Below, one piece after another: positions 2 to 20,307 of a DNA stretch of 64,000 nucleotides. Made by a program: the position numbers and the translations under genes. The stretch spans positions 248,001 through 312,000 of the forward strand of contig NZ_JAXIVS010000003.1 in the NCBI RefSeq assembly GCF_034259325.1, read 5' to 3'. Within the stretch, counting starts at the first letter, position 1, and each line of letters opens with the position of its first letter. Under the pieces are notes generated by a model. That model saw nothing but the letters and a program-made list of their open reading frames with translations, was not told where the DNA came from and did not search any database. This stretch comes from Hyalangium ruber (GTDB lineage: Bacteria > Myxococcota > Myxococcia > Myxococcales > Myxococcaceae).

Positions 2-2968
<2,967 letters not shown>

Positions 2969-3153: not shown

Positions 3154-3187
3154 CGGCGAACGCATGAGGTGATGAGCCGTTGGAACA

Positions 3188-3203: not shown

Positions 3204-3208
3204 AAGGC

Positions 3209-4963: not shown

Positions 4964-4995
4964 CCCGATGAACGCACGGCCGTACTGAAGGCGAC

Positions 4996-5023
4996 AGCGG
5001 GTCAGGTTCATGCCTGGCCCGCT
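4996..5023 (+). terminator. Hairpin terminator after the subtilase gene
   Basis: AGCGGGTCAGG (4996-5006) pairs with CCTGGCCCGCT (5013-5023) over 11 positions with one G-U wobble and a six-base loop. It lies 32 bases after the stop codon and is followed by a moderately T-rich stretch. It fits an intrinsic terminator, although the T-tract is weak, as is usual in this GC-rich DNA. Confidence 0.6.
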
Positions 5024-5095
5024 TGTCCGTTTCGGTTGACCTCTCGGGGTGCTTCCCGGAGCATTGGCCTGGGCCGGTTCACTTGGGGGAAATCC

Positions 5096-5827
5096 ATGAA
5101 TCGTTCGTACCGTTTGCCGACCGCCGTCATCCTGCTCTCGCTGCTCGTGCAGGTGACCGCATGCCAGCCGGACTCAGCGCCCGAGCCGGTCGAGCCGTCC
5201 CCGGCTCAGCCCTCTCCGGCACAACCCTCCCCGACCCAGCCTACCGACACCCCGGAGGTCCAAACCTCCCCCTTCTCGCTCACGTCTCCGGAGCCAGACA
5301 CCAGCACGGATCCCAAACCCCCGGGGAACAACGTGTCGTGTGGAGTGCTCACCACCGGCTCCGCGCTTGGCAGCCTGGACTTCCGTTATGACGCCTACGT
5401 GGTCACGGCCCGGGAGTCCGGCTCGATGACCCTCTACTCCGACGTCATCGCGGTCAACCCGGCCGGCTATCGGTATGGCTACGGGTATCCGCTCAGCATG
5501 GCGGCCATCGAGGACGGCGTCACCCTCGCCGCCTACGGCGGCAACTACGTCCAGAACGCGCTCGAGACCGGGACAGCGATCATTCAGTACCCGGTGCTGG
5601 CGGGGCGGCAGTACATCCTGGTGTACAAGACGTTCGGCAGCTTCACGCCGCTCACGTACTGCCTCACGCTGCCCGAGGCGCTGACCCTCGAAGGTCGGAT
5701 CCATGCGCTGCCGCAGCCGGTGACTGTTCCCACGAACAGCGCGGGCCTCATCACGCTGGAGAACCCGCGTCCGGACGTGCTGAACCGCTTCGTTCCCTGG
5801 CTGAGCGAGCGGGTGAAGGGAAACTAG
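5096..5827 (+). CDS. Proline-rich lipoprotein of unknown function
   Basis: About 243 residues. The chosen ATG follows GGGGGA at a good distance and begins a clear lipoprotein signal, with hydrophobic residues 8-19 and VTAC making Cys23 the lipidation site. Next comes a low-complexity spacer with repeated PAQPSP units (about residues 29-45), which probably holds the protein away from the membrane. The folded part (about 75-243) contains aromatic- and Gly-rich beta-type sequence and resembles small secreted beta-sandwich domains. I do not recognise a family. It is monocistronic, between terminators at 4996 and 5879. An in-frame ATG 60 bases upstream would spoil the signal peptide. Confidence 0.7.
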   Translation: MNRSYRLPTAVILLSLLVQVTACQPDSAPEPVEPSPAQPSPAQPSPTQPTDTPEVQTSPFSLTSPEPDTSTDPKPPGNNVSCGVLTTGSALGSLDFRYDAYVVTARESGSMTLYSDVIAVNPAGYRYGYGYPLSMAAIEDGVTLAAYGGNYVQNALETGTAIIQYPVLAGRQYILVYKTFGSFTPLTYCLTLPEALTLEGRIHALPQPVTVPTNSAGLITLENPRPDVLNRFVPWLSERVKGN

Positions 5828-5878
5828 CAGGCCGCTGTTCCGGGAATTCTAACTCCCCGAGAGGGTCTGAAGTAAAGA

Positions 5879-5909
5879 GCGGGCCCGGGGTCACGAATCC
5901 TGGGCCCGC
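5879..5909. terminator. Bidirectional hairpin terminator
   Basis: GCGGGCCCGGG (5879-5889) and CCTGGGCCCGC (5899-5909) form an 11-bp stem with one wobble pair and a nine-base loop. It lies midway between two convergent genes ending at 5827 and 5932, the usual place for a shared terminator. Confidence 0.6.
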
Positions 5910-5931
5910 CTGCTGGCTGAACCGAAGCCTG

Positions 5932-6504
5932 CTAGACCTCCTCGAAGCGCGTACCGGTAGCGCCCATACGCTCCAAAGCGTCCTTGATCTCCTCCGAGAT
6001 CAGCAGCGTGCCCGACCACCCTTCAGGACGGAACACCTGGGCGTTCCCCACCTTCACCCTTTCGATGCGCATGTCCCGAACATCCCGATACTGGCCAACC
6101 CTGTCCGGTGATCCATCCTCATGGGTCCAGAGCAGGATCCTGGATGCCTTCTCATCAATGCATTGGATGAGGCGCGTGGCCACCAGGATGAGGTACTGAT
6201 CCGGTTGGCCTTCGATGTCCGCGGGGATGAGCTGCACATCGCCAGGGGCACGCTCCGACAGCATGGAAGCCACCTTGACGTGGACAACGGGGATCCTCAC
6301 TCCCGCCTCGCAGAAGTCCAGGGGTCTGCCCGCAATCTTGATGGGGATTCTCAACCGTCCCTCCAAGGACACGGGCGCCCCTCTCTTGAAGTCCCAGTCA
6401 TGCACCTTGCGGCCCTGGCTGTCGATGGGCGTAGCCAAGTACCAGCGCTGGGGGACATAGACGTCGTCCTTGAGCTTGAAGAAGCGCTGACCCATAGGGG
6501 ACAT
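5932..6504 (-). CDS. Imm11-type (DUF1629-like) immunity protein
   Basis: A 190-residue soluble protein without signal peptide. Its sequence matches my recollection of the Imm11/DUF1629 family abundant in myxobacteria: an N-terminal RFFKLKDDVY start, the LDFxxAGVxIPVVHV core, a GQPDQYLILV strand and a C-terminal SEEIKDALERMGATG helix. Family members neutralise cognate toxins of SitA/AHH-type polymorphic systems. Its ATG (6504-6502) directly abuts the TAG stop of the upstream toxin-like gene, so translation is probably coupled. Since that toxin gene is truncated, this immunity gene may be kept as protection against toxin-bearing neighbours. The family call is from memory of consensus features, not a search. 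Confidence 0.7.
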   Translation of the reverse strand: MSPMGQRFFKLKDDVYVPQRWYLATPIDSQGRKVHDWDFKRGAPVSLEGRLRIPIKIAGRPLDFCEAGVRIPVVHVKVASMLSERAPGDVQLIPADIEGQPDQYLILVATRLIQCIDEKASRILLWTHEDGSPDRVGQYRDVRDMRIERVKVGNAQVFRPEGWSGTLLISEEIKDALERMGATGTRFEEV

Positions 6505-7095
6505 CTAGCGTGGTTTCCCCAGGGTGACGAGTTGGTTCAACTCCGTTCCGGGCATGCTCACCATCTCGCCCAGCGCTTTCTCGAACTCCTCCAGCACGGG
6601 GCTCTTGCTCAGGGCCATCGCCCACATGTAGCGGCCTTGCAGGTCCAGGTATTTCCCGGCAACGAGCGCTCCCCCCAGGCAATCGCCCTCGATTTGATGG
6701 GCGCTCCGGCACCAAGCCTTGTACCGGTTCACCAGCTTCTGCTCCTCCTCCGTCAGTGCTCCCTCCAAGGGAGCGCCCGACTCCAGTGGGATGAGTTTCC
6801 CGTCTCTGGGCAGGTACAGGTAATTGCCAAAGTGAGCGTTGAGTCGAAGGATTCTCTCCGCTGTCTCACGAGGCGAGGCGGAGAGGCGCACCTCCCGCGC
6901 CAGCCTCTGAATGACCGCTGTCACCTCCTTCGGCTGAACCTCCACCAGCTCCCGGGTTGCGGTGCGGGGAACGTGGATGAGGGTTTCTCCCCGCTCTCCG
7001 GACCCTACCCGGACGATTCGCGGAGTCCCGCTGCATCCCACCATCAGAGCAAGGACCAAGGCATTGGTCCTCCATAGAATCCGCCACAGAATCAT
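6505..7095 (-). CDS. Truncated SitA-like polymorphic toxin lipoprotein (N-terminal region only)
   Basis: A 196-residue lipoprotein with hydrophobic residues 11-20 and lipobox LMVGC (Cys21). The sequence after it follows the conserved N-terminal region of myxobacterial polymorphic-toxin lipoproteins: VRVGSGERGETLIHVPRT, then an EVxPKEVTAVIQRLAREVR helix, a YLYLPRDGKLIPL strand and a CRSAHQIEGDCL Cys pair. Full-length members continue with hydrophobic segments and a C-terminal toxin. Here the protein stops shortly after ALGEMVSMPG, so no toxin domain is present. The gene is followed at zero distance by the Imm11-type gene. It is best read as a disarmed toxin or a carrier lipoprotein, and truncation at residue about 180 is the notable feature. 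Confidence 0.6.
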   Translation of the reverse strand: MILWRILWRTNALVLALMVGCSGTPRIVRVGSGERGETLIHVPRTATRELVEVQPKEVTAVIQRLAREVRLSASPRETAERILRLNAHFGNYLYLPRDGKLIPLESGAPLEGALTEEEQKLVNRYKAWCRSAHQIEGDCLGGALVAGKYLDLQGRYMWAMALSKSPVLEEFEKALGEMVSMPGTELNQLVTLGKPR

Positions 7096-7223
7096 GGGTC
7101 ACCCCTCCATGCTGAGGAGCAAAGCAAGGGCGCAAGCAGCCATACCACTTCGCTTCAACCATCGGCCGGAATGGGGGATGTTCCCGGAAAGACCTGGCAC
7201 ACGGTCAGGCAGGGAGCACGCGG

Positions 7224-7898
7224 ATGCGGTTCGAGGCAGTCCTTTTCGATTGTGACGGCGTCCTGGTGGACTCCGAGCCCATCACCATTGGCGTCCTGCG
7301 CGACATGTTCGAGGAGCTGGGCTGGAAGATGAGCGCCCAGGAGTGCATGGCGCTGTTCGTCGGCAAGACGGTGAAGGACGAGGCGGCCCTCATCGAGGCG
7401 CGCACCGGTGTGCCGGTAACGGATGCCTGGCTCGCTCAGTTCCGGGCGCGGCGCAACGAGGCGCTGGAGCGCAACCTGGTGGCGGTCCGCAACGTCCACG
7501 CGGCGGTGGCGTCCATCCACGCGCGGCAGCAGGGCCGCATCGCCTGCGCTTCGGGCGCGGACCGCCTCAAGGTCGAGCTGCAGCTGCGCAAGGTCGGCCT
7601 CATGAACTTCTTCGAAGGGCGGATCTTCAGCGGTCACGAGCTGGCGCGCTCCAAGCCCGCGCCCGATGTGTACCTGGCAGCGGCCGGCGCCCTGTCCGCG
7701 CACCCCGCGCGCTGCGCCGTCGTGGAAGACACCATCACCGGCGTGACAGCCGGCGTGGCGGCCGGTGCCACGGTGTTCGGCTACAGTCCCCCCGAGGCCG
7801 GCCATGATGCGCCCGAGGCCCTGCGCCGTGCTGGGGCGGCGCACATCTTCACCGACATGGCGCATCTGCCCGAGCTGCTCGACACCTGGCGCACCTGA
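7224..7898 (+). CDS. HAD-superfamily phosphatase (beta-phosphoglucomutase-like)
   Basis: A 224-residue HAD subfamily IA hydrolase. Motif I is FDCDGVLVDSEP (nucleophile Asp9 and general acid Asp11), followed by a helical C1-type cap. Motif II is the Ser/Thr in IACASGAD, motif III is the Lys in ARSKPAPDVY, and motif IV is the acidic pair in VVEDTITGV. This layout matches phosphoglycolate/phosphosugar phosphatases and beta-phosphoglucomutases; the substrate cannot be told from sequence. The ATG follows AGGGAG. It is a single gene, divergent from the toxin/immunity pair. Confidence 0.88.
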   Translation: MRFEAVLFDCDGVLVDSEPITIGVLRDMFEELGWKMSAQECMALFVGKTVKDEAALIEARTGVPVTDAWLAQFRARRNEALERNLVAVRNVHAAVASIHARQQGRIACASGADRLKVELQLRKVGLMNFFEGRIFSGHELARSKPAPDVYLAAAGALSAHPARCAVVEDTITGVTAGVAAGATVFGYSPPEAGHDAPEALRRAGAAHIFTDMAHLPELLDTWRT

Positions 7899-7910
7899 CA
7901 GAGCCCGTTT

Positions 7911-8023
7911 CTAGTTCTTCAGGCCCACTTCGAGCCCCAGGGCCTCGCTCGCGAAGCGAGCCATCCGCTCCAAGTCCGTGGGGAGCAGCCCGATCTGGTC
8001 CGCCGAACCCCCTCGGGCACGGG
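7911..8023 (-). pseudogene. Possible C-terminal gene remnant
   Basis: Directly downstream of the sigma factor stop codon, the minus strand has an open stretch ending in a TAG at 7911-7913. Its last part reads LLPTDLERMARFASEALGL followed by EVGLKN and looks like a coding amphipathic helix, not random GC-rich sequence. No start codon or upstream portion exists because the sigma factor gene ends there. I cannot name the family. It may be a leftover of a gene once located downstream. Confidence 0.25.
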
Positions 8024-9280
8024 CTAATCCAGAGTCTCGCTCAGCCGTGCCGCGTGCATCAGAAGATAGTTCCGCTCCGATGTGCTCGTCGTGCGCTCGG
8101 CGGCGCGTCGGTAGTGCGCGATCGCGCCCGAGGAGTCGCCTGCCCGCTCCAGGAGATGGGCACGGACCGCGTCGAGGCGATGATGCCCTTCGATGCGAGG
8201 GTCCTTGGCGATCGCATCCAGGCGCTCGAGCCCTGCGGCCGGGCCTTGAACCATCGCCGTCGCGATCGCGAGGTTGAGCGTCACCATCGGATTGTCGGAC
8301 ATGCGCTGCAAGAGGCCGTACAGCTCCAGGATCTGCGCCCAGTCCGTGTCCTCGGCGCGTGCGGCCTCGTCATGCACCGCCGCGATCGCCGCCTGCACCT
8401 GATACGGGCCGACCGAGCCCCGCGGCAACGTGGCGGCGATGAGCGCCAGCCCCTCGGAGATCGCGTCCCGGTCCCACAGGGCGCGGTCCTGCTGGTCGAG
8501 CGGGATGAGTTCACCCGACGGTCCGGTTCGTGCGGCGCGGCGCGCGTCAGTCAGGAGCATGAGCGCGAGGAGCCCCGCGACCTCGCAGTCGTCGGGGACG
8601 AGGCGATGGAGCATGCGCGTCAGCCGGAGCGCCTCCGCCGAGAGGTCGCTGCGATGGAGTTCTGGGCCGGAGCTCGCCGTGTAGCCCTCGTTGAAGATTA
8701 GATACAGCACGTGCATCACCGCACCGAGGCGCTCGGCGCGCTCCTCGGCCGTGGGCATCCGAAAGGGCACTCCGGAGGTTTTGATGCTCTGCTTGGCGCG
8801 GCTGATCCGCTGCGCCATGGTCGCCTCCGGCACCAGGAACGCCTTGGCGATCTCGAAGGTCGTCAACCCTCCGACAGCGCGGAGTGTGAGCGCGATAGCG
8901 GACGCGGACGAGAGCGCCGGGTGGCAACACATGAAGAGGAGATCCAGGGTGTCGTCCCGCTCCGTCGTGCCCTCATCGGCGGCGAGGGCGATCTGCTCCT
9001 CCACGGGCACCAGGCTGACCACGATCGCCTCTCGGTGGCGACGGGCGGCCTCGGCACGAACATGGTCCGTGATGCGTCGCGACGCGACCTGGATCAACCA
9101 GGCGCGCGGGTTCTCGGGCAGCCCCCCACTCGGCCACTGCATCGCCGCGGCGATGAGAGCTTCCTGAACCGCGTCCTCCGAAGCGGCGAAGTCGCGGTAC
9201 CGTCGAATGACGGCACCCAACACCTGGGGCGCAAGGTCACGCAACAGGTGCTGGGTACGGGTGTCCAGTGCAGGGGGCAT
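8024..9280 (-). CDS. ECF42-type RNA polymerase sigma factor with TPR-like C-terminal extension
   Basis: A 418-residue ECF sigma factor, about twice the usual length. Residues about 8-75 are region 2 (including the EDAVQEALIAAAMQWP segment), and region 4 lies at about 110-170 (LTTFEIAKAFLVPEATMAQRISRAK helix-turn-helix). The remaining 240 residues form the helical SnoaL-free extension characteristic of group ECF42 (DUF6596-like, with VLYLIFNEGYTAS and a LDQQDRALWDRDAI segment). ECF42 factors have no classical anti-sigma factor and are encoded beside DGPF/YCII proteins. Here the start codon overlaps the TGA of the YCII gene (TGATG), so the pair is one translationally coupled unit. Confidence 0.88.
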   Translation of the reverse strand: MPPALDTRTQHLLRDLAPQVLGAVIRRYRDFAASEDAVQEALIAAAMQWPSGGLPENPRAWLIQVASRRITDHVRAEAARRHREAIVVSLVPVEEQIALAADEGTTERDDTLDLLFMCCHPALSSASAIALTLRAVGGLTTFEIAKAFLVPEATMAQRISRAKQSIKTSGVPFRMPTAEERAERLGAVMHVLYLIFNEGYTASSGPELHRSDLSAEALRLTRMLHRLVPDDCEVAGLLALMLLTDARRAARTGPSGELIPLDQQDRALWDRDAISEGLALIAATLPRGSVGPYQVQAAIAAVHDEAARAEDTDWAQILELYGLLQRMSDNPMVTLNLAIATAMVQGPAAGLERLDAIAKDPRIEGHHRLDAVRAHLLERAGDSSGAIAHYRRAAERTTSTSERNYLLMHAARLSETLD

Positions 9281-9675
9281 CAGAGCAGGTCTTTGGGCGG
9301 CCCGCTCATCACCTGCCGCACCTCGATCGCCATGTTGAGAGGCGCACCCCCGGGCCCGGGGGCGGCGGAGGCCTGCGCGGCGATCTCATAGGCACGCTCG
9401 GGGCTCTCGACGTCGACGATCCAGTAGCCCGCGAGGAACTCCTTCGACTCGGGGAACACGCCGTCCGTGATCGGCTTGCCATCCTTGCCGGCGCGCACGC
9501 GCTTGGCCTGGTCAGGGCCGGCCAGGCCCTCGGCGGACACGAGCTCGCCCGACTCCCCGAGCTTCTTCGCGAAACTGATCATGAACCCGATGTGCGCCTG
9601 GAGGTCCTGCTTCGGCCACTGGGCGATCTGGTACGGGCCACCACTGGGGGTGTTCATCATCAGCATGTACTTCAT
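9280..9675 (-). CDS. DGPF/YCII-domain protein
   Basis: A 131-residue YCII-related protein beginning MKYMLMMNTP and carrying the family core (GYWIVDVESPERAYEIAAQ) near residues 85-103. YCII-like folds are small dimeric alpha/beta barrels, and the activity of DGPF proteins is unresolved. They are almost always co-encoded with ECF42 sigma factors and are thought to be their targets or signal partners. The ATG at 9675 is preceded by AGGAG at six-base spacing. That site is buried in a long hairpin (9679-9733). It is the first gene of a two-gene operon with the sigma factor. Confidence 0.85.
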   Translation of the reverse strand: MKYMLMMNTPSGGPYQIAQWPKQDLQAHIGFMISFAKKLGESGELVSAEGLAGPDQAKRVRAGKDGKPITDGVFPESKEFLAGYWIVDVESPERAYEIAAQASAAPGPGGAPLNMAIEVRQVMSGPPKDLL

Positions 9676-9678
9676 GGT

Positions 9679-9733
9679 CGACTCCTGGGTGTACGGGCGC
9701 CCCTCCCTGGAGCGCGCGTTCACCCAGGAGTCG
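9679..9733 (-). promoter_or_regulatory. 5' UTR hairpin sequestering the ribosome-binding site of the DGPF-ECF42 operon
   Basis: On the minus strand, CGACTCCTGGGTG (9733-9721) pairs perfectly over 13 bp with CACCCAGGAGTCG (9691-9679). Inside, GCGCTCC and GGGGCGC (9715-9709 and 9703-9697) form a second 7-bp stem with one wobble pair and a five-base loop. The two stems are separated by a symmetric 5x5 internal loop. The AGGAG of the ribosome-binding site lies within the 3' outer arm, three bases before the start codon region. The sequence therefore predicts masked translation initiation. It could also act as a DNA operator. Confidence 0.65.
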
Positions 9734-9838
9734 GAGCCGAACGGCGGTTCTCTACATCGGCGACGCATTTCTTCGACATTTTTCCGGGTCGCCGTAAGCA
9801 CCTGAAAAGACTGGGCTCGCAAGGAGCCGGGCGAGCCG

Positions 9839-12352
9839 TCAGCCCACGAACCGGAACTGGATTTCGCGGCCCGCGTCGAGCTCCCGCTGCACGGGGACGG
9901 TGATGTCCTCCTTGGTGATGAACGTCTTGCCCCGGGCCAGGTTCTTGTTCGCCGTGAACGCCTTGTCGGTGCTGCCGCCCTGCACGTAGCACTGGAAGTC
10001 TTCCGGTTTGCCAATGGCCGCGGGGCAGATGATGCACGCGTACACATCGCTCAGGGTCGCGAGCGGCTTCTGCTTGGTGTCGATCCAATAGCGGAAGTAC
10101 TTGTGGACGTAGTCGAGCTGAGCGACCTCGCTCAGCCCCTTGAGCACGTCCACCGTCGTCCCGAGCGTCTTCGCGGCGGTGGGGGTGAATTGGATCAACC
10201 CGTAGGCCGCATGCCCTGCCCGGTTCTTGGTGCTGGCACTGAACTCCCGCCCCGTCTCGAAGGCCATGCAGGCCATGAGGTGCTGGGCATTCACCTTGAG
10301 GTCCGCGCAGATGGAGAACACCTTCTGCCGGAACTCCCGCGGCACCAGCTTCCCGAAGATGAGCGCGCCCGCCACCGCGTTCGGTGAGTTTCCGAGCTCG
10401 ATGCTCACCGGGGGAACGTCCGTGTTCAGGACCTTGCCCTGGTTGTCCACCACGCAGGCTTCCAACCGGAACTTGCCCTTGCCCTTTCCGTTCAGCAGGG
10501 GTTCGAGCTCCTCGACGACGAGCGGGTCGGTGATGCGGGCCTGGAGCAAGCCCTGCGAGTCACACTGTCCCCCCTCTCCCTTCAGGAGGTCATACCGGAA
10601 CTTCACCCGTGGCATGGGGATGGGGTCTGGGAGATCCGAGGCGATCTCCTGGATGCGGAAGGCGAGCGTGGCACCGCTCTTCCCGGTGGGGATGTGGCGA
10701 GCCCTGGCCTGCACCTTGAGGTACGACGTCGCGTCGGTGAGCTTCACGGCCTTCACCGTCACGTCACTCAGGCGGGGTGTCCCCTCGTAGGCCAGGGTGC
10801 CTGGCGGCGGCGCGGCGACGCTCTCTCCCCACAGCTTCGCGTTGGGATTGCTCACCTTTGCCTGGAGCTTCACCTTCTGGCCGTGGATGCGCTTGTCATC
10901 CAGCGGGACGAGCGCCTCATACAGCCGGGGATTCTCCGCCGTGGGTTTGGCGTCGAGCTTCATCACCTCGCTCTTGCCCGTCGCGTCCTGGACGGAGAAG
11001 ACGGGCGAGGCATCCTTCCAGTAGACGGGCTCGCCGACGACCTTGAAGCTCACCAGCAGGTTCTTCTCGCGCGTGCCCGCCGTGATGGCGCCAAAGTGCG
11101 GCAGCCGCTGCGGCCGGAGCTTCAGCTCCGAGGAGGCCACGGCGGTCGCCAGCTCCTTGGGCGTCTTGAGCTGCTTGCTCTGCCCGGGGCCACCCTTCTT
11201 CTTCTGCGGCTCGAGCCACAGCTCGTCATCGTCGAAGGGCAGGAACTGCGCCGCGTCGAACTTCATCACGGTGCTGATGGGCACGTAGTTCTCGGTCCCG
11301 GACAGGCTCCTGGGGATCCGCAGCATGCCGAAGAAGTGGCTCTCGCCCGTCAGCACATCGTAGTCGGCCAGATCGAAGAAGAACTCCATGCTGGAGCTGA
11401 GCGCCTCGGCCGGCCGGGTGACCGGATTCATGACGTGCAGTTGCTCGAGGATGGGATCCTGCAGCCAGGCATCATGCCGCCAGAGGCTCAGTTCGAGCGG
11501 CAGCTTGTAGCCCGGGTCGATGTTGTCGAGCTCCGCGGTCATCCGGCCGAACTCCACGCTGAAGCTCTTGAGGACCGGCTTGGGGAACCTCAGAGCGGAG
11601 GGCCTGTCCCACAGGAGGTAGCGCACCTCCTGGCCACTCTGCTCATCGAAGGCCTCGAGCACGAAGTCGTACGCGTACTGATCCGCGTTCGTCTCCAGGT
11701 AGGTGAGCAGCTTGGCGCCATCGCTCTCGGCACAGCCGGTGCGCCAGGTGCGCGTCTCGCCTTCTTGCTGGGTCCACTCGAAGACGGAGTACGGCGTGGC
11801 GCGCCGGGCCTTGGGAGACGGCGTGTGGAACACGGACAGGCGCAGCTTCACCGTCTTGAAGAACGGGGCAATGCGCGGCTCGAACTTGACGAGCTTGCCC
11901 AGGTGGACCTTCTGCCCCGCATCGGCGCCCAGGATGTCCAGCGGGTTGTCGAAGGAGATCACCCCGGAGAGCTTGCAGGCCTCGGCGAAGGGAAAGTCCG
12001 GCACGACGCTCAGCTCCGCCGTGCCCTTGCCGATGAAGCCGGCCTCCAGCGCATCGACCACCGCGGCGATGCCGCAGCTCTCGCCCTGGATGTTCATGGC
12101 GGCCCCGACCTCGCAGGTGCGCTCGATGCCCTGGGACTTCGCCTTGATCAGCACCCGGCACTGGGGGGCCTCGCCACCTCCGGGGGGGCTCAGGTTCTTC
12201 TGCTTGCCCTTGATCAGGAGGGTGTACTTGCGCCCATCCTGGATGCAGCGGTCCAGCGAGAGTTCGAGCGTGATGGGAGGCACGGCGACGAGGCGGATGA
12301 CGCCCTCGAAGCCCGGTTCGATCTTCAGCTCCACCTTCTTGCTGGCTGTCAT
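9839..12352 (-). CDS. Large protein with C-terminal lytic-transglycosylase-like domain
   Basis: An 837-residue protein starting MTASKKVELKIEPG with no signal peptide. Residues 1-670 are beta-rich sequence without a family I recognise, probably several Ig-like modules. The last 150 residues look like a lysozyme-fold transglycosylase: MACMAFETGREFSAS supplies a candidate catalytic Glu, AYGLIQFTPTAAKTLG matches the GLxQF/Px motif, and a helical tail with Cys-containing VYACIICPAAIGKP follows. Lytic transglycosylases cut peptidoglycan. It overlaps the giant upstream gene by four bases (ATGA), so the two are made together. Lack of a signal peptide suggests export by a dedicated machine such as T6SS, but no such genes are in the window. 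Confidence 0.65.
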   Translation of the reverse strand: MTASKKVELKIEPGFEGVIRLVAVPPITLELSLDRCIQDGRKYTLLIKGKQKNLSPPGGGEAPQCRVLIKAKSQGIERTCEVGAAMNIQGESCGIAAVVDALEAGFIGKGTAELSVVPDFPFAEACKLSGVISFDNPLDILGADAGQKVHLGKLVKFEPRIAPFFKTVKLRLSVFHTPSPKARRATPYSVFEWTQQEGETRTWRTGCAESDGAKLLTYLETNADQYAYDFVLEAFDEQSGQEVRYLLWDRPSALRFPKPVLKSFSVEFGRMTAELDNIDPGYKLPLELSLWRHDAWLQDPILEQLHVMNPVTRPAEALSSSMEFFFDLADYDVLTGESHFFGMLRIPRSLSGTENYVPISTVMKFDAAQFLPFDDDELWLEPQKKKGGPGQSKQLKTPKELATAVASSELKLRPQRLPHFGAITAGTREKNLLVSFKVVGEPVYWKDASPVFSVQDATGKSEVMKLDAKPTAENPRLYEALVPLDDKRIHGQKVKLQAKVSNPNAKLWGESVAAPPPGTLAYEGTPRLSDVTVKAVKLTDATSYLKVQARARHIPTGKSGATLAFRIQEIASDLPDPIPMPRVKFRYDLLKGEGGQCDSQGLLQARITDPLVVEELEPLLNGKGKGKFRLEACVVDNQGKVLNTDVPPVSIELGNSPNAVAGALIFGKLVPREFRQKVFSICADLKVNAQHLMACMAFETGREFSASTKNRAGHAAYGLIQFTPTAAKTLGTTVDVLKGLSEVAQLDYVHKYFRYWIDTKQKPLATLSDVYACIICPAAIGKPEDFQCYVQGGSTDKAFTANKNLARGKTFITKEDITVPVQRELDAGREIQFRFVG

Positions 12353-15300
12353 GTGTGGCCCGCCGTGTCGGTGGACGACTCGAGAGGAGGATTGCTGAGC
12401 CGGGTGCCGACGCTCTCGTCACGGGGCGGCTCCTGCTTGGGCTCGGTGGGCAACAGCTCCTCGGGGATGTCGAGCGCCTGTTCCTTGCCGCAAGCGCCCT
12501 TGAGCGCTGAATCCGTGGGGACGACGCGCACCTTGCACTTCTTGCCACCGGCCCGCCGGAGCGCATCCGCCACGTCGCGCAGCTCCACCTCCGCGCGCAG
12601 GACGCCATCCTGCTCGATGGCCCCGACGAGGCCCTTGCGCGGCTGCTTGTAGCGGAGGCTGGTGGGCGCGAGCTTCAGCACCTCGGAGCCGGGCTTCTTC
12701 GGGTTGACGGGCGCTTCGGGGTTGAAGAACTCCAGCTTGAACGTCTGGGCGAGGGTGACGGCCTGCGTGGTGAGCTCGATCAGCCGGGTGTACTCCTCGC
12801 CCGCCTTCGGCTTGATCTCCAGGCTCGCGGAGGGCCGCACGTCGTAGGCGATGGTCTCCGAGTTGGCGACGTCGATCTTCTCGAGTTCGAAGGGCACCGC
12901 CTTCTTCCGAGCCTCGGCCATGATGGCGAGCGTCGCGCCCTTCACCTGGGAGAACTCCACGTCTCGTACGGCACGCAGCGGCTCGCCTTTGGCGGCGACG
13001 ATCTTACAAGGGTTGTTCTTGATCGAATCGAGCGAGCCCTTGCCGACGTTGAGGACCGGTGTCGCGGCGTTCCAGAAGCTCCAATCCGCGCCGACGAGCT
13101 CCACGCTGAGCTTGATGCCCGTGGTGGTGAGCCGCCAGGTGGGCTTGCCGAAGCCGGGCTTGTGCAGCACCTCCGCGCCCGCGGTGGACCACTGCTCCAG
13201 ATACCCGGCCTGGGCCAGGCTCTTCAGCTCCGCCAGCTTCACCTGGGTGGGCTTCGAGCCCACGGTGTCAGCCGGCAACAACCGCTTGTCCAACGCGCCG
13301 CCACCGTTGGGGAAGAAGCAGCCGAGCTGCACGGCGAGCTGCTGCCCCGGCGCCAGGTTCTTGCGGAGCTCCGAGAAGGCGGCGCTCGGATTGAACTCGA
13401 TCACCACCTCCCCGGCGTTCTTGCTCTGCTCGGGCGGTGCCACCTTGATCCGAATCGCCCCCTTGGCCTCCTCCTCCGTGGAGTCGATCCAACCGGTCCC
13501 CATCACCTTGTCCACAGCGGTCTTGAGCCTGGCCGCATCGGTCCCCTTGAGCAGCAGGGAGAGGCCGTTCTCGGAGAGCGCGGACAGCGTCAGGCGCTGG
13601 CGCGACGAGTACTCGTCCTGGACACGCTCCACGGCCTCGACGAGTTCCCAGGCCAGCTTCGGAACGGAGCCCGCGGCGGCAGGCGGGGCGTTCGGCCCCG
13701 GCTTCTTCACCGCGTCCAGGAACGCTTTGTACGTGAAGTGCTGCGTGATGTAGGTGCTCACATCCTTGACGGTGCCCTGCTGGACGAACCCGTCGATGAT
13801 GGCGAAGCCGGCCTGCTCGTTGAACGCGGTGTCCTCGCGCGCCTCGATGGGAATGGCCATCTCGAGCGTGTACTGGCTCGTCTCCTTGGGAATCTCCGCC
13901 TTGGCGTCGCCCTGCCATCCCCGGAGGGTGATCCACCCTCGGAGGAACCTGGGGCAGTTGCGCCGGAAGGCGACGCGCCACGTGCGCTTGCCGTCCGGGA
14001 GCTTGACCGGCCCCAGGGGATCCTCGGCGGACTGCGTATCGCTCTCGGTCTGGTCGCTCGGGGCCTTGAGGAGCGTGGGACGCAGGCCCTCCACCGCCAG
14101 CGAGCCCAGCGCGTCCCCGCCGGGTTTGTCGAGCACCCACTTGCCCCAGGCCGGGAACTCCACGGGCTGGACGAACAGGCCCTCGACGAACTTCCCGTCT
14201 CCCAGCGTGAGCGGCACCGCGCCGCTCATCTTGAGGGCCACGGGCTCACCGCCATTGCCTCGCTGAACGGCACAGGCGGTGATGTGCTCGCCCATCCGCA
14301 GCGGCGCATGCTTCGCGCGCGCGGGCAGCCAGCCACAGGCGGCCACCTTCTTCATGTCCTCCGAGCGCCACACCGGCTTGTCCGTGAAGCGGATGAAGGA
14401 GTGGCGCCCCAGCAGCATCAGCACCCAGGCGACGGTGACCGGGTTGGCATGGTCGAGGAAGGTATCGTCGGGCAGTTGCTCGTCATTCGAGGGGGAACCG
14501 GCGAAGAGCGGCTCGCCCTGCTCCTCGGGACCCAGCACCGCCTTCTCGCTCGAGTGTCCCCACCAGGCGACGGACTTCGCGAGCTCCTGGATGTCCTGCT
14601 CCGTCTTCTTCGGGTCCGCGTTGTCGAGCAACCGGTCGCCGATCTGCAGCTTGCCGCGCATCGCGAGGTGCGCCTTGAGCTGCTCGGCGATGCCCTTCTC
14701 GCTCCAGTCGTTGACGTGCCGGAGGATGACATTGCGCCAGCGCACGGAGGCCAGGTTCCGGAAGTGCTTCACGTCCTTCGTGAGCGCATCGGGATCCGAG
14801 CCGCCGCCCGGCTGGATGAAGAAGCCCTCGGGCTCCACGCAGATCTTCTTGGCCTTCGCGGGCACCCGGATGCGGACACTGGCCTGCTTCCCGTCATAGG
14901 GGACGACCTGCTCCGCTCCTCCGGGCTCGAAGGTGAACTTGAGCTTGTAGCTGCCCGGGGGCATGCAGTTCTTGAAGTTCTCGAGGGAGACCTCGGCCGG
15001 GTAGTCGGGCTCGGTCGAACTCGGCTCCTCCTCCTCGGCGAAGGCCAGGCCCTTGGGCGAGGACAACAGGCGCTGGAGCACTCTGGCGTCGTAGGACGTC
15101 TGGAAGCTCTTGAGGGCCTGACGCTCCTGCTCTCCCAGGTGCTTCGAGGCGGGGGCCAGCTTCAACAGCTCATCCAGCTCGCCTTCCTTCCCGGAGACCG
15201 CGGGCGGGTCGAAGACGTTGTTGGGCTTGTCGGTCTCCTCGTAGAACTTGAAGAAGCCCCGGCCCAGCTTCAGCTTGTCCTCGGCGAACTCGAGGAACTC

Positions 15301-17196
15301 CTTGAGCTGGCCCGTGGAGCTGGGGGCAAAGACCTCCCAGTGGAGGAAGCCCTCACCGTCGCGGCTCTTCGAGTCGATGTAGCCGAGCAGCTCGCCCGCC
15401 CGCACCTTCAGGTAGGGATGGGGGATGGTGACGATCTCTCCGTTGCGAAGGGCGTCGTGGAGTTCCTTCAGGTCCTGGTCTGGCTTCTTCCAGACCGCCC
15501 GAATGAGGTCCTCCTTCGGCGCACCGAGATCGAGGCTCTGCGGCAGCCCGAGTCCCGCGCCCATGGTGTTCAGCTTGCCGCCCCGGAGCTGCGCCAGCTC
15601 ACCCGGTCCGTTCTGTCCCTCGGGAGCGCCCTGGAGCCACTTCACCTGCTGATAGGAGGGGTGCTGGGGATCGACCACGGCGACGCAGCCATCGCGCCGC
15701 GCGAGCGTCTTGAGCCACGCGACGTCCTGGTACGTCGTCACATCGTTCCAGTCCGGCGGCACCAGATGCATGTAGAGGCTGTAGAAGCAGAAGCGCTCCG
15801 GCTCGGAGCCGCCCGCCCCCCCCGCCTTCTTCGGGATGAACTCCTCGACGTCGTGCCGCACGAGGATGAAGGAGTTGTGATTGCCGGCGAGCTCCTGGGC
15901 CAGGGTGTTCGACTGGACGCCCGGGTTCTCCTCGTCCTTCTTGGCGTCCTTGTCCCCGGGCGGCGTGGGGAGCGCCTTCACCATGCGGACGGCCACGACG
16001 TAGCCCGGCGCGAAGCATCGCACGGCCTTGCCCGCTGGCGCGAACCGGGAGCTCTCCAGATGGATGCCGGAGTGGAGGTTGCGCTGGCTGCCGATGGGGA
16101 AGAGTCCCGCGCCGGCGCTCTCCGTGTGGATGTAGACGTTGGACGGGCGGAAGCGCTCCTTCTTGTCATCGAAGGGGAAGGCCACCGAGCGCATGACGTT
16201 GGTGTAGAGCAGCTCGGGAGGGACCGGCGTCCAGCGGTGCGAGTAGAGGAAGGTGCCGCCCTTCCGGTCGCTCTCGCAGTAGTCCATGTACAGGTCGCCA
16301 CGCACGGTGCTGAGGCGGTTGTCCTCGAAGAGCTTCCGGGCCCGGATCATCACCAGCGAGCCCTTGGCGTTGTCCCAGGCCCCGGGAATCACCCGGATCA
16401 GATCATGAGTACCACTGAGGGACTTGAGCCCCGCCAGGTCCGTGGGCTCCTTGGGCAGGGGCGGGGTGAGCATGCCCGAGCTGATCTTGTTGGCCTGGGT
16501 GGCCGGATCGGCGACGACGAGCCAGAGGTGCCGGCCCGTGTCATCGGTCACATAGGCATAGCCCACGATGAGGATGAGGTGGACCGGCGCGCCGAGGGTG
16601 AGCGAGAAGCCCGAGTAGAGGATGACCGGATTGTTGGAGGTGAGCGCCTGGAGGATGGTCTCCAGCCTCGAGGCGATGTGCTGGGGACTGCTCGCGATCT
16701 CCGCCGCCCGTGCCTGCCGGTTGGGCTCGTCGTAGGGAAGGAGGACTCCGGGGCGGAACCCCAGCACCTCGCCGGTATGGAGTGCGCCCTTTTCGACCGC
16801 GGCGTCGAAGTCCGCCGGTGGCTGGGCCACGAAGCCGTCTCCCCCGTCCTTGGTGGTGCCATAGACGGAGTAGCCCGAGACGTTGCTGGTGGCCGAACCT
16901 TTCACGGGAACGGTGTGAAAAGCCCGCTGCCCTCCCGGGTAGCGCAGATCGACGAAGTTCCCCGGGGTGCCGCCATTCCAGTGGGTGATGAACTTCGACT
17001 CCGCCCCGCCCTGCACGAGCTGGTAGTAGTTGAACGCCATCGACGAGGAGGTGCGTCCACACCAGTCCTGCGGTCCTCCGGGGTAGTGCTGCCCCAGGAG
17101 GGGGACCTTGAGGATGTGATACTCGTCCAGCGAAGCCAGCAGCTCGTCGGGGAGCTCGTACTTCCAGTCGGGCCAGTACCGGGTTGTCTTCTCCAT
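12349..17196 (-). CDS. Giant multidomain protein with C39-like and M23-like peptidase modules
   Basis: A 1615-residue protein without signal peptide. Residues about 25-290 resemble a papain-fold C39-like peptidase: Cys46 in QDWCGRTS, His206 in APVHLILIVGYAYV and Asp230 in VVADPAT form a plausible triad. Residues about 370-625 follow an M23/LytM endopeptidase layout: LHSGIHLES (His375), SLYMHL (His477) and FLHWEVF (His619). However, the metal-binding Asp of HxxxD is His379 and the first His of HxH is Phe, so this part may be degenerate or structural. Residues 640-1615 are unassigned, mostly beta-rich. It sits in an operon with SH3- and transglycosylase-like proteins. Peptidoglycan or peptide cross-link processing outside the cell is inferred. 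Confidence 0.65.
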   Translation of the reverse strand: MEKTTRYWPDWKYELPDELLASLDEYHILKVPLLGQHYPGGPQDWCGRTSSSMAFNYYQLVQGGAESKFITHWNGGTPGNFVDLRYPGGQRAFHTVPVKGSATSNVSGYSVYGTTKDGGDGFVAQPPADFDAAVEKGALHTGEVLGFRPGVLLPYDEPNRQARAAEIASSPQHIASRLETILQALTSNNPVILYSGFSLTLGAPVHLILIVGYAYVTDDTGRHLWLVVADPATQANKISSGMLTPPLPKEPTDLAGLKSLSGTHDLIRVIPGAWDNAKGSLVMIRARKLFEDNRLSTVRGDLYMDYCESDRKGGTFLYSHRWTPVPPELLYTNVMRSVAFPFDDKKERFRPSNVYIHTESAGAGLFPIGSQRNLHSGIHLESSRFAPAGKAVRCFAPGYVVAVRMVKALPTPPGDKDAKKDEENPGVQSNTLAQELAGNHNSFILVRHDVEEFIPKKAGGAGGSEPERFCFYSLYMHLVPPDWNDVTTYQDVAWLKTLARRDGCVAVVDPQHPSYQQVKWLQGAPEGQNGPGELAQLRGGKLNTMGAGLGLPQSLDLGAPKEDLIRAVWKKPDQDLKELHDALRNGEIVTIPHPYLKVRAGELLGYIDSKSRDGEGFLHWEVFAPSSTGQLKEFLEFAEDKLKLGRGFFKFYEETDKPNNVFDPPAVSGKEGELDELLKLAPASKHLGEQERQALKSFQTSYDARVLQRLLSSPKGLAFAEEEEPSSTEPDYPAEVSLENFKNCMPPGSYKLKFTFEPGGAEQVVPYDGKQASVRIRVPAKAKKICVEPEGFFIQPGGGSDPDALTKDVKHFRNLASVRWRNVILRHVNDWSEKGIAEQLKAHLAMRGKLQIGDRLLDNADPKKTEQDIQELAKSVAWWGHSSEKAVLGPEEQGEPLFAGSPSNDEQLPDDTFLDHANPVTVAWVLMLLGRHSFIRFTDKPVWRSEDMKKVAACGWLPARAKHAPLRMGEHITACAVQRGNGGEPVALKMSGAVPLTLGDGKFVEGLFVQPVEFPAWGKWVLDKPGGDALGSLAVEGLRPTLLKAPSDQTESDTQSAEDPLGPVKLPDGKRTWRVAFRRNCPRFLRGWITLRGWQGDAKAEIPKETSQYTLEMAIPIEAREDTAFNEQAGFAIIDGFVQQGTVKDVSTYITQHFTYKAFLDAVKKPGPNAPPAAAGSVPKLAWELVEAVERVQDEYSSRQRLTLSALSENGLSLLLKGTDAARLKTAVDKVMGTGWIDSTEEEAKGAIRIKVAPPEQSKNAGEVVIEFNPSAAFSELRKNLAPGQQLAVQLGCFFPNGGGALDKRLLPADTVGSKPTQVKLAELKSLAQAGYLEQWSTAGAEVLHKPGFGKPTWRLTTTGIKLSVELVGADWSFWNAATPVLNVGKGSLDSIKNNPCKIVAAKGEPLRAVRDVEFSQVKGATLAIMAEARKKAVPFELEKIDVANSETIAYDVRPSASLEIKPKAGEEYTRLIELTTQAVTLAQTFKLEFFNPEAPVNPKKPGSEVLKLAPTSLRYKQPRKGLVGAIEQDGVLRAEVELRDVADALRRAGGKKCKVRVVPTDSALKGACGKEQALDIPEELLPTEPKQEPPRDESVGTRLSNPPLESSTDTAGHT

Positions 17197-17214
17197 GGTG
17201 CGTGTCCAGCCGCT

Positions 17215-18342
17215 CTAGGGTCCGCCCTCGACACAAGGCTTGTGCTGCTCCGGATACCTCTGGATATCGTACGAGTAGAGCGTCTCTCCCGAGGAAGCCT
17301 GGTCGCTCTCCGGCGCGGGGAGCTTGAAGACCTCGACCTTGCCGTCATCGAGCGTCAGCTCGAGCGCGTTGTCCCGCTTGGAGACCGAAGAGATCTGCCG
17401 CACGAGCCCGCCATCCGACTGGGTGCTCTCGATCCGGAAGAGCCAGCGCCCGTGCATGTCGGGAACGAACCGCACCTGGAACGGTCTCTTCGAGCAGTCG
17501 CTCCAGTGCATGTAGGTGAGGCCACCCGCTCCCTTGATCAGCTCGCCCCACACCTTGGGGGTCTCTTGCAGGAGGGTCTGAGAACTCTCGTCGAGGACGT
17601 ACTGCCCCAACGTCGGGAGGCGATCGTCGTCCGCTGTCGGGGTGATGCCCGCGAAGAGCGCCTTCTCCATCACGGGAGTCGTGGCGAAGCGGGTCCGCTC
17701 GAACACCTCGCCCGTCAGGGTCTCGCTCTTCTTGTTGTAGCGATAGTTGCCCCGGTAGACGGCCACGTTCTCGCCGCTGCCGATGGCGGTGACGAAGAGG
17801 TTCTTCCGGGCCTCGACCCGAACCTTGACGTTGCGCAGCTCCCGGGCGCTACAAGCCTTGACGCAAGCGAGCGCATCTCCCTTGCTGCAGTAACACGTGA
17901 ACTCGCGCTTCATCGCGGGCTTCTGGGTCGCCGCGGTGAGCTGGAGGTTTCGCTCGAAGAAGAGCGTCCCCAACTGCTTCTGTAGCGCGGCGTCCTCCGG
18001 CGCGAGGCTCGCGGCCCGGAGCGCACTGTCCAGGCGCTGCTCGAGCTTCAGCTTGGGGTTCTTCGCCTCGGCCTTGAGCTTCTCGAGGGACGGCTTCTGG
18101 GGTCCCAGCAGGGAGGCCGAGGCGTAGCCCTCCTTCTCCCCGCAGCGCACCTTCAGCCACTCCGCCGGGAGCTTCTCGGAGACGAGGCACTCGGTCCCAA
18201 TCGGCAGCTTCTCCAGCGCCTCCGCATCCTTGGTGGGCTCCTTGCGCAGGTTGATGGAAGAGCCCTGCACGTAGACCCGTTGCTCCACGGGGGCGCCGCT
18301 CGCGACCGCCGTGAGCAGGAGGGAGATCAGCAGTGTTTGCAT
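17215..18342 (-). CDS. Secreted protein with N-terminal bacterial SH3-like domain
   Basis: A 375-residue protein with a short Sec signal peptide (about residues 1-17). A bacterial SH3-like domain (about 20-85) shows the typical SSINLRKEPTKDAEAL start, GTECLVSE middle and LKVRCGEKEGYASASLL end, a fold that often binds peptidoglycan peptides. A helical region follows, then a beta-rich C-terminal half of unknown family with a Cys-rich insertion (FTCYCSKGDALACVKAC). It ends 18 bases before the giant peptidase-like gene, so they are co-transcribed. It may be a periplasmic partner or an immunity protein for that gene product; the latter is only a guess from its signal peptide and position. Confidence 0.65.
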   Translation of the reverse strand: MQTLLISLLLTAVASGAPVEQRVYVQGSSINLRKEPTKDAEALEKLPIGTECLVSEKLPAEWLKVRCGEKEGYASASLLGPQKPSLEKLKAEAKNPKLKLEQRLDSALRAASLAPEDAALQKQLGTLFFERNLQLTAATQKPAMKREFTCYCSKGDALACVKACSARELRNVKVRVEARKNLFVTAIGSGENVAVYRGNYRYNKKSETLTGEVFERTRFATTPVMEKALFAGITPTADDDRLPTLGQYVLDESSQTLLQETPKVWGELIKGAGGLTYMHWSDCSKRPFQVRFVPDMHGRWLFRIESTQSDGGLVRQISSVSKRDNALELTLDDGKVEVFKLPAPESDQASSGETLYSYDIQRYPEQHKPCVEGGP

Positions 18343-18511
18343 CAGCAGGCCATGACTCAGCGAAAGTTGAACTCGTTCCAGCGGCTACACCCCCCTCCGA
18401 CGACCCTCCCCGCAGGCTCATTCACACCGGAGCGAGTGTCCTACTGTGCCACACGGGGCTCACTGCTCCCAAGCGAGGTGGAGCCGTGCCGCGGCAGCGG
18501 CCCTGATGAAG

Positions 18512-19498
18512 CTATGCCGAGAACCGGAAGACCGGCGGCGCGGGCACCTTGGCCACGCGCAGCACCTGGCGCGGCCCCGAGGCCGCCAGGCTCAGCTCCA
18601 TCGGACGGGCGATGTAGAGGATGCCGGGGTTGTCGTGGCGGGTGAGCACGAACTTGCCGCTGGCATCCGTCTCCCTGCAGCCCACGTCGAGGAAGAGGCG
18701 CTTCTGGATCTCCTTGGGAGCGGTCGTCCCCCAGTTGAACTGGGTGAGCTCGTTCACCGAGAGGCCGTTGGCCTCCGCGACGCTCTCCAGCGTCTCGCCG
18801 TCGGAGACCTTGTACTTCACGAGCCGCGCCAGGAAGCGCCCCGAGGCTTTCTTGCGGCCCTCCTGTGGCAGTGACGTACCGGCACCGGACTTCACGAACG
18901 CCAGCGTCTCATCCAGCGTCGCCCCGTCGATCACCGACTTCACCTCGATGAGCCCGGGAGAGACATTCGAGGCACGAACGGTGCCCGAGCCATCCGAGGA
19001 GGCCTGCTGCGTGCCACCGCCCGGCAGCTTGAGCTTCAGCTTGATGCCGGAGATGGGCTCGTCGGTGACATCGTCGACGATCTGCAGAGTGAAGGAGAAC
19101 TTCTCCTCTACCGGGGGAGGAAAGAACGTCTCCTCCTTCTTGGTGGAGCCCAGGACGCGGCCCAACGACACCACCGGAACCTCCGCCAGCCGCAAGCGGC
19201 CTTCCACCAACTGCGTGGCGACCCGCCGCACGAGCTCGTCCACGGAGGCCGTGCCGAAGGCCATCGACGAGGCATCGCCGTAGTTCAGCTCGCGCAGCAC
19301 CTGCAGGTTGGAGTGGTCCTGCGACAGGTGGCGCAACCACCCCTGCACCCGGGACAGGTCCGTGTGTACGACGGGCTTGTGCCGCTCGGGGATCGGCTCG
19401 TGGAACTTCAGCAGCACGTAGTCGCGAAACCCGTCGCGCAGGCGATAGCTGAAGGAGTGGGAGGCCGCTGCCTTGACCTTGCGTGCTTCGGACACCAT
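18512..19498 (-). CDS. LysM-like domain protein, first gene of the cell-wall-module locus
   Basis: About 328 residues from the ATG at 19498. The N-terminal 130 residues are an unrecognised alpha/beta region (SYRLRDGFRDYVLLKFHEP). A beta domain (about 135-215) resembles an Ig-like/prealbumin-like sandwich (DEPISGIKLKLKLPGGG). A LysM-type motif follows at about 245-290 (YKVSDGETLESVAEANGLSV), then a short beta tail. LysM binds glycan backbones. No signal peptide is visible. The gene lies 169 bases upstream of the SH3 gene on the same strand and is divergent from lysoplasmalogenase; the gap could hold a second promoter. I infer a common function with the three following genes. Confidence 0.6.
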   Translation of the reverse strand: MVSEARKVKAAASHSFSYRLRDGFRDYVLLKFHEPIPERHKPVVHTDLSRVQGWLRHLSQDHSNLQVLRELNYGDASSMAFGTASVDELVRRVATQLVEGRLRLAEVPVVSLGRVLGSTKKEETFFPPPVEEKFSFTLQIVDDVTDEPISGIKLKLKLPGGGTQQASSDGSGTVRASNVSPGLIEVKSVIDGATLDETLAFVKSGAGTSLPQEGRKKASGRFLARLVKYKVSDGETLESVAEANGLSVNELTQFNWGTTAPKEIQKRLFLDVGCRETDASGKFVLTRHDNPGILYIARPMELSLAASGPRQVLRVAKVPAPPVFRFSA

Positions 19499-19599
19499 CG
19501 CGCATGACCTGAACACAGGCTCAGCGAGAGCGTCAATCCGGGCTCTCCTCAGGGCGCAACCCTGGGGAGGTGTAACCAAACCTCCCCTCCCTGGATAAG

Positions 19600-20307
19600 A
19601 TGCACCCCATGCGCGGTGAGCTTGCATTGGGGACGAAGATCCTCGCGGCAGTGGGGGCAGCCAGTGCGGTGGCCTTCCTCCTCGCGCTGGATCTGGAGCG
19701 CTATGAGTTCCGCTTGGTCGCCAAGGCGCTGCCCATGCTCTGCCTGATCCTGTGGATGTGGCCGCCCCGGGAGCGCTACTCGCGGTGGATCTTCGCCGGG
19801 CTGGTGCTCTCGCTGCTCGGTGACGTCCTGTTGGAGGTGGGGCCGGAGCTGTTCCTCCCGGGCCTGGGTGCCTTCCTCCTGGCCCATGTGAGCTATGCCG
19901 CCGCGTACCTCACCGTGACGCGAAGCCCCAGCGTGACGAGGGCGCTTCCCTTCGTGCTCCTGGGCGTGAGCGCCAGCGTGTTCCTGTGGCCGGGCCTTGG
20001 GAGCATGGCGCTACCCGTGACGGCATACATCGCCGTCATCTGCACGATGACGTGGCGCTCGGCCGCCATGGTGGGCAGCCAGGGGCTGGCGCGGCGTGAG
20101 CAGTGGATCGCGCTCGTGGGCGCACTGCTGTTCGCCGCCAGTGATGGGTTGCTCTCCATCAAGCTCTTCGTGCGTCCCCTCCCCGGCGCGGGCTACGCCA
20201 TCATGCTGCTGTACTGGGCCGCACAGCTCTGCATCGCCCTCTCGGCTCGCGGGCCTCGGCATGAGGCTCCGGGCAGGCCAGCGCCAGCACAGCCAGGCGT
20301 TGCATAG
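19600..20307 (+). CDS. Lysoplasmalogenase (YhhN family)
   Basis: A 235-residue integral membrane protein with about seven to eight hydrophobic helices. The two family signatures are present: the Asp-containing LLGDVLLEV near residue 70 and AASDGLLSIKLF near residue 185, which contribute the acidic catalytic residues of YhhN/TMEM86 proteins. These enzymes hydrolyse the vinyl-ether bond of lysoplasmalogens. Myxobacteria make ether lipids, so the substrate fits the host. Starts at 19600 or 19609 are equally possible. It is divergent from the LysM gene with about 100 bases between them. Confidence 0.82.
   Translation: MHPMRGELALGTKILAAVGAASAVAFLLALDLERYEFRLVAKALPMLCLILWMWPPRERYSRWIFAGLVLSLLGDVLLEVGPELFLPGLGAFLLAHVSYAAAYLTVTRSPSVTRALPFVLLGVSASVFLWPGLGSMALPVTAYIAVICTMTWRSAAMVGSQGLARREQWIALVGALLFAASDGLLSIKLFVRPLPGAGYAIMLLYWAAQLCIALSARGPRHEAPGRPAPAQPGVA

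Follow-up and report, generated by a model that had tools for sequence, protein, structure and literature searches.

Known wall-targeting effectors of the type VI secretion system (T6SS) are mostly single proteins. T6SS effectors recruited by LysM proteins have been described in Ketobacter (Kalk_10455/LysM-GI5) and Burkholderia (BRPE_05220), and LysM in recruited T6SS loci is linked mainly to Lyz-like, NlpD (M23), and NlpC/P60 toxins (PMC10673891). WHIX double-blade effectors (Awe1) combine a polymorphic carrier with M23, M15, and lysozyme-like blades and have adjacent secreted immunity proteins (PMC12135965). For myxobacteria, an account of kin discrimination (PMC10433427) describes scattered effector-immunity loci, among them T6SS tsxEI and SitAI, that are patchy among strains; the SitA proteins, lipoproteins transferred through outer-membrane exchange, have toxins that are characterized or predicted as nucleases.

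We analyzed a locus of four genes, here called LysM, SH3, BIG, and LT, in a window of 64,000 nucleotides (the whole stretch of DNA under study). It resembles the LysM-recruited T6SS effectors in that a stand-alone or fused LysM protein is linked to a putative effector with an adjacent candidate immunity gene. However, those loci have vgrG by the LysM gene and the cassette described here does not, and it differs further by a beta domain before LysM, a distinct N terminus, and two large cargo proteins. It shares with the WHIX effectors a polymorphic carrier, similar blades, and adjacent secreted proteins, but the two WHIX blades lie in one protein, whereas here the blades are on two operon proteins. 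With the kin-discrimination loci it shares a scattered and patchy occurrence in the same genera; the parts of that account considered here describe no two-hydrolase cassette, and our literature search found no description of this one.

Our favored reading, of moderate confidence, is that the locus is an effector cassette of T6SS type that encodes two wall hydrolases, with LysM as their loader and SH3 as a periplasmic immunity protein. It draws directly on the gene content, the conserved linkage, the identity of the modules, their swapping, and the co-occurrence with T6SS within the family; export, toxicity, immunity, and loading are its predicted part. If this reading is true, the platform, in which a loader and a periplasmic protector serve two proteins that each have swappable blades, would be a new architecture in bacterial warfare. 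It would also provide candidate T6SS effectors for predatory myxobacteria, about whose wall-targeting weapons and routes of export little is known. The cassette is also a source of wall-cutting domains missed by current family models, and tractable Myxococcus strains allow a direct experimental test of it.

Organization of the locus

Four consecutive open reading frames, all with ATG starts, occupy positions 9839-19498 of the minus strand in the order LysM, SH3, BIG, and LT, reading from 19498 to 9839 (Table 1). A gap of 169 bases separates LysM from SH3 and one of 18 bases separates SH3 from BIG, and BIG and LT overlap by 4 bases, in agreement with the earlier note on the four minus-strand genes, the 18-base gap, and the overlap of four bases. 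Its reading of the 1615- and 837-residue proteins as lacking signal peptides and of the 375-residue protein as having one also agrees with the open reading frames. The GC3 of the four frames was 0.87 to 0.92 compared with a GC2 of 0.42 to 0.47, indicating that these are real, coding genes. The window spans positions 248001-312000 of contig C3 of the host genome (G000; 10.8 Mb), which belongs to a predatory soil bacterium and is of the Myxococcaceae type, with Archangium, Myxococcus, and Pyxidicoccus as its named relatives.

Table 1. Coordinates of the genes, domains, and other features of the cassette
Feature	Position	Strand	Remarks
LysM gene	18512..19498	-	328 aa, no signal peptide; proposed effector recruiter/loader
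CarboxypepD_reg-like beta domain of LysM gene	about 18938-19084	-	weaker match, ahead of LysM
LysM domain	about 18707-18814	-	Pfam, 22.0 bits vs cutoff of 20.9
SH3 gene	17215..18342	-	375 aa, Sec-type signal; proposed periplasmic immunity protein
Bacterial SH3 domain of SH3 gene	about 18106-18261	-	SH3_3, Pfam
BIG gene	12349..17196	-	1615 aa, no signal peptide; proposed peptide-cutting effector
C39-like peptidase module of BIG	16477..17127	-	Pfam C39_2 in relatives; alignment of 34 members
M23-like (LytM/lysostaphin) domain of BIG	15307..16119	-	profile vs lysostaphin; alignment; Pfam M23 in L017
LT gene	9839..12352	-	837 aa, no signal peptide; proposed glycan-cutting effector
Lytic transglycosylase domain of LT	about 9866-10366	-	catalytic Glu in MAFETG
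Possible rho-independent terminator just 3' of LT	9814..9828	-	consensus scan; count of such sites across the region not above that in shuffled sequence

Hydrolase modules of BIG and LT

BIG consists of a C39-like peptidase, an M23-like domain, and about 950 aa of further, mainly unidentified sequence, and its orthologues share 47 to 51% identity over the full length. The Pfam C39_2 match to residues 24 to 240 was below threshold (18.8 bits versus a cutoff of 24), and two relatives exceeded the cutoff (24.3 and 29.1 bits). The residues Q35-C45-H205-D229 (Gln-Cys-His-Asp) were invariant in locus types T1 and T2 (defined below) in an alignment of 34 members; this is the catalytic set of C39_2 peptidases, which is intact in BIG. 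The second module gave no Pfam M23 match in the BIG protein of the window itself. However, a 10-member family profile of residues 360 to 630 matched lysostaphin (E value of 5e-4), and the distant relative L017, of type T4, reached the Pfam M23 cutoff at 28.8 bits. H374, H378, H476, and H618 are conserved in this domain, with H378 in place of the usual Asp ligand in types T1 to T3, and the first His of the HxH motif is lost (F, Y, L, or T) in every member aligned. The HxxxD...HxH zinc/catalytic set of active M23 endopeptidases was therefore not found in the BIG alignment. The change of Asp to His together with the lost catalytic His makes M23-like activity doubtful, and the domain is, judging by these residues, degenerate, so that "M23" in BIG names a fold and not a demonstrated activity. 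A structure model of BIG residues 1 to 684 had a mean pLDDT of 33 and was not used.

LT consists of a scaffold of about 660 aa, which looks beta-rich in a low-confidence model, and a C-terminal lytic transglycosylase (last ~200 residues). A profile of this domain matched PDB 9udh, a solved phage lytic transglycosylase, with an E value of 5e-48; the domain is about 41% identical to many phage enzymes, and the Glu in MAFETG was invariant in five LT orthologues. Foldseek also matched the LT model to 9udh (TMt 0.71), although the model is of low confidence (mean pLDDT of 58.6), and of its matches we used only this one because the sequence agrees. The many receptor-like Foldseek matches were taken as generic beta-sandwich matches. 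Sequence, fold, and catalytic Glu all identify the domain as a phage-type lytic transglycosylase. Unlike the phage virion enzymes, however, the LT domain is joined to a long beta-rich scaffold and is coupled to BIG.

The similarity of LT to phage enzymes (~41% identity) raises the idea of a captured phage lysis or tail module without a present antibacterial role, but this is very improbable, as BIG found no match in the phage collection and its N-terminal 684 residues none in plasmids, the neighborhood of the locus showed no evident phage structural genes, and different genera have kept the reading frames and the catalytic residues.

The earlier note had assigned wall-related modules to all four proteins. 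This holds for the C39-like, transglycosylase, LysM, and SH3 modules but not fully for the M23-like domain, which is degenerate and has lost one catalytic His; rather than scoring as unrelated folds, the C39-like, M23-like, transglycosylase, LysM, and SH3 modules are supported by profiles or alignments. The M23-like degeneracy is absent from that note, as is the resemblance of the LysM protein to a T6SS recruitment factor (see below).

Conservation and swapping of modules

The SH3-BIG-LT trio is conserved in the genera Archangium, Myxococcus, and Pyxidicoccus and is syntenic in Archangium violaceum, A. lansinium, Myxococcus xanthus AM003, Myxococcus sp. CA023, and genome G028. BIG was found in 25 of 96 genomes of the family, with a patchy distribution, several copies in some genomes and none in close relatives. 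Homologues of the LysM protein lay within 10 kb of a BIG-type gene in 20 of 25 cases, against a chance expectation of 0.09 (~0.1), and the LysM gene is therefore part of the cassette, although its position varies among loci (upstream, downstream, or divergent). The linkage extends to the distant family f27 (L144). In the distant genome G188, which is of another family, BIG, scaffold, and LysM occur together. The earlier note would have given up a shared system if the four genes failed to co-occur in relatives; their co-occurrence was instead far above chance. L019/G061, L021/G093, L022/G034, and L023/G102 are apparently the same genomes in two collections, and each was counted once.

The loci fall into types that differ in their enzymes. 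Type T1, that of the window, has a C39- and M23-like BIG, a transglycosylase partner, and SH3. Type T2 (L015 and L021) has the same modules in BIG, SH3, and a partner whose C-terminal domain is probably SleB-like; the SleB-like reading is weak (Hydrolase_2 E value of 6e-3, no PDB match). In type T3 (L016, with relatives L063, L067, and L068), BIG has M15_4 and M23-like modules and is accompanied by a GH24 partner and other secreted proteins. Type T4 (L017, L109, and L146-L148) is C39-like and M23-like, with the catalytic Cys changed to Ser in L017. An amidase type (L143; L110/L113/L115) carries Amidase_2 and M23-like modules, and L142 has a pesticin-like N terminus. The C39 module at the N terminus of BIG can thus be replaced by M15_4 (E value of 3e-12), Amidase_2 (5e-22), or a pesticin-like domain (7e-4), and the C terminus of the partner can be a transglycosylase, GH24 (5e-4), SleB-like (6e-3), or none, the partner being a scaffold without a hydrolase domain in some copies (L111, L112, and L144). 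Around conserved cores, the wall-cutting modules are exchanged for unrelated ones, which is the pattern of polymorphic effectors. The cassette copy of G028 adjoins Tox-REase-5/Imm52 and TsiV (type VI immunity) genes. The M. xanthus-type loci lie beside a putative amidase gene on the opposite strand and a putative Lon-type protease gene, both judged by eye.

Proposed function

Under the favored reading, the locus would be an orphan T6SS-type (contractile-injection) antibacterial cassette that works, by analogy, like known T6SS wall-targeting effector-immunity loci. BIG and LT, made in the cytoplasm without signal peptides, would be injected into the periplasm of a neighbor, where the C39-like module of BIG may cut peptide stems or cross-links and the LT module glycan strands, so that both kinds of wall bond would be cut. 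The LysM protein would link the VgrG spike with the cargo, a function established for LysM proteins of other bacteria, and the SH3 protein, exported to the periplasm via Sec, would shield the producer and its kin. A broader idea is possible, though we would not call it probable: an undescribed myxobacterial platform with one LysM loader and two scaffolds with interchangeable blades, by which peptide and glycan are cut together, common to T6SS and other contractile injection systems.

Association with T6SS and other contractile systems

The earlier note had found no T6SS genes in the window and called the exporter unknown. Sheath and VgrG genes are indeed absent from the window, but both are encoded on other contigs of the host genome (G000), which has two complete TssC/VipB matches and one split one; the question of the exporter is thus partly resolved, delivery by this T6SS being a prediction. 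Every one of the 25 Myxococcaceae-type genomes with BIG encodes a T6SS sheath protein, and BIG occurs in none of the 31 sheath-negative ones. Phylogeny and genome size confound the association (hypergeometric P value of 9e-6 uncorrected for phylogeny and 0.002 by genus). Outside the family, G188 has a T6SS and no phage-type sheath match. In another family, f7, the T6SS sheath is missing from nine genomes that carry divergent relatives, several of these genomes being incomplete.

No VgrG, PAAR, Hcp, or known adaptor gene lies beside the cassette in the window or in the T1 to T3 loci examined, and the VgrG loci examined contained no BIG, LT, or LysM homologue by BLAST. The adaptors and signatures considered, none of which adjoins the cassette, were DUF4123, DUF2169, DUF1795, MIX, WHIX, and RIX. 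A Pfam search of the cassette gave no adaptor or MIX-like match, and DUF2169 was seen only beside a distant amidase-type relative. In G140, a short motif in the 187-aa product of a gene next to the relative suggested a PAAR-like protein, but only half of such a motif is present and Pfam gave no support, and this reading was dropped. The WHIX motif (WHxxxH) was absent from T1 to T3 BIG and from the three partner proteins scanned, and membership in that class was rejected; an anti-phage defense reading was rejected in the absence of a PADLOC match. The genome encodes a T6SS, and BIG and LT have wall-degrading domains without signal peptides, as expected of T6SS effectors. Because no adjacent spike gene or known export signature is present, we do not claim that they are members of this class. 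In M. xanthus, the T6SS effector-immunity loci are reported to be dispersed, at a distance from the one cluster that encodes the apparatus (PMC10433427), and the lack of VgrG beside the cassette fits this arrangement. Since scattered loci are known, the missing VgrG or adaptor link only lowers the case for membership. The points that count against the T6SS reading are thus the lack of an adjacent spike or signature, the sheathless f7 relatives, the degenerate M23-like domain, the confounding with phylogeny and genome size, and the orphan SH3 proteins described below.

The same effector logic could also operate with another carrier, BIG and LT being exported by an extracellular or other contractile injection system or by Tad-like (Kil)/T3SS* predation machinery. 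A phage-type contractile sheath gene was present in five of six T6SS-negative relatives tested, and in G041, which lacks a T6SS, a contractile cluster is found about 7.6 kb from T4-type relatives. Within the Myxococcus genus group, G092, G098, and G100 each have an 890-aa Amidase_2 and M23-like relative. Both loci read (G092 and G098) have a DUF2169-type gene near it, confirmed by Pfam in G098, and in G092 the genes that follow it form a complete contractile cluster with sheath, tube, CIS_tube, spike, and baseplate. The effectors of Kil/T3SS* are not known. However, this cluster-linked relative has only the M23-like stretch in common, and only the distant G092/G098 relatives are inside such clusters; the window and the T1 to T3 loci are outside them. 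Moreover, BIG follows T6SS exactly within the family, G188 has a T6SS and lacks a phage-type sheath match, and the loci examined showed no evident Kil or T3SS* gene. We therefore consider another carrier unlikely.

The SH3 protein and immunity

SH3 is the only one of the four proteins with a recognizable Sec signal, MQTLLISLLLTAVASGA (by eye), at about residues 1 to 16. Its SH3_3 match was below threshold in the window protein (E value of 6e-4) and stronger in the G028 orthologue (2e-5). SH3 adjoins BIG in the T1 and T2 loci examined, and the periplasmic partner follows the enzyme type, with SH3 accompanying C39 types and other secreted proteins accompanying M15 types. In G022, a deletion has joined BIG out of frame to the LysM gene and removed LT, leaving SH3 intact. 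The T2 copy of G102 has an internal stop at a contig end, which may be an assembly effect, and was not counted as another instance of effector loss. In Pyxidicoccus fallax, BIG is accompanied by two adjacent SH3 paralogues. These patterns fit an immunity role, in which SH3 would protect the producer. Orphan SH3 proteins, often with lipoprotein-like N termini, occur in several BIG-less genomes; they too would fit immunity but could instead represent a housekeeping envelope family.

Such orphans would also suit a wall-processing machine acting on the producer itself (in development, sporulation, or envelope remodeling) with SH3 as a wall anchor or regulator, an alternative raised in the earlier note. 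Wall enzymes that act on their own cell often contain SH3 and LysM domains, and the amidase-like and Lon-type protease genes beside the M. xanthus-type loci would be in keeping with such a role. However, BIG, LT, and LysM lack signal peptides, the patchy and sometimes multicopy distribution (25 of 96 family genomes, none in close relatives) does not suit it, and swaps of unrelated hydrolases are unexpected for a housekeeping role. We judge this alternative improbable, and less likely than the other proposal of that note, an effector locus that acts by contact and includes a periplasmic partner or immunity protein. The latter is the best supported, by module swapping, patchiness, retention of the partner after effector deletion, and complete T6SS co-occurrence in the family, though the support is partial overall.

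The LysM protein

In the T6SS-type cassette that we favor, loading would fall to the LysM protein. It comprises an N-terminal domain of about 115 aa, a CarboxypepD_reg-like beta domain, LysM, and a short conserved tail. By comparison with the described systems, it most resembles a T6SS effector recruitment factor and not a wall binder only, suggesting a role as loader. The beta-plus-LysM stretch is also found in Het-C proteins, several of which adjoin small lipoprotein-like genes. A gene whose product has a LysM-like N terminus lies directly downstream in some of the VgrG loci in these myxobacteria.

Toxin, immunity, and contractile genes around cassette relatives

In G028, which carries orthologues of the window's cassette, a Tox-REase-5/Imm52 pair directly adjoins that genome's T1-type cassette, as does a TsiV gene (type VI immunity for VRR-NUC). 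The window itself contains two immunity-type genes elsewhere, and the Imm11-family gene is adjoined by a lipoprotein-like gene of 196 aa, which, judged by eye, may be a SitA-type toxin remnant.

Coordinates of the genes and loci described (window or locus positions)
Feature	Location	Positions	E value
Toxin/immunity genes beside cassette	L012 (G028)	6186-9760	
Imm11-family gene	Window	5932-7095	3e-10
Imm52 gene	Window	48663-49385	3e-98
Amidase_2+M23-like protein, DUF2169 gene, contractile cluster	L113 (G092)	10-15518	
Amidase_2+M23-like protein, DUF2169 gene	L115 (G098)	9741-16385	
T4-type pair, Amidase_2 gene	L150 (G041)	9780-20000	

In two Myxococcus-group genomes (G092 and G098), the Amidase_2+M23-like protein is followed by a DUF2169 gene, the identity of which was confirmed in G098. 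In G092, this protein also precedes an entire contractile injection cluster, comprising sheath, tube, CIS_tube, spike, and baseplate genes. G041, a genome without T6SS, encodes two large proteins of the C39-like and M23-like type T4 (1,504 and 1,342 aa) in a row with an Amidase_2 gene; a contractile injection cluster precedes them by approximately 7.6 kb.

LysM-like starts were also found in proteins of 669 to 733 aa encoded downstream of VgrG genes (L182, L183, and L184); the L182 protein has an Amidohydro_2 match, with DUF2169 downstream. A LysM module is fused to or located inside Het-C proteins at L103, L104, L106, L107, and L108, the last being Zn_dep_PLPC-like. Several of these genes are adjoined by a small lipoprotein-like gene, which could encode immunity. 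Orphan SH3-family proteins (L207 to L213) are encoded far from any gene for the large C39-like and M23-like protein (BIG), and some are from genomes without any BIG.
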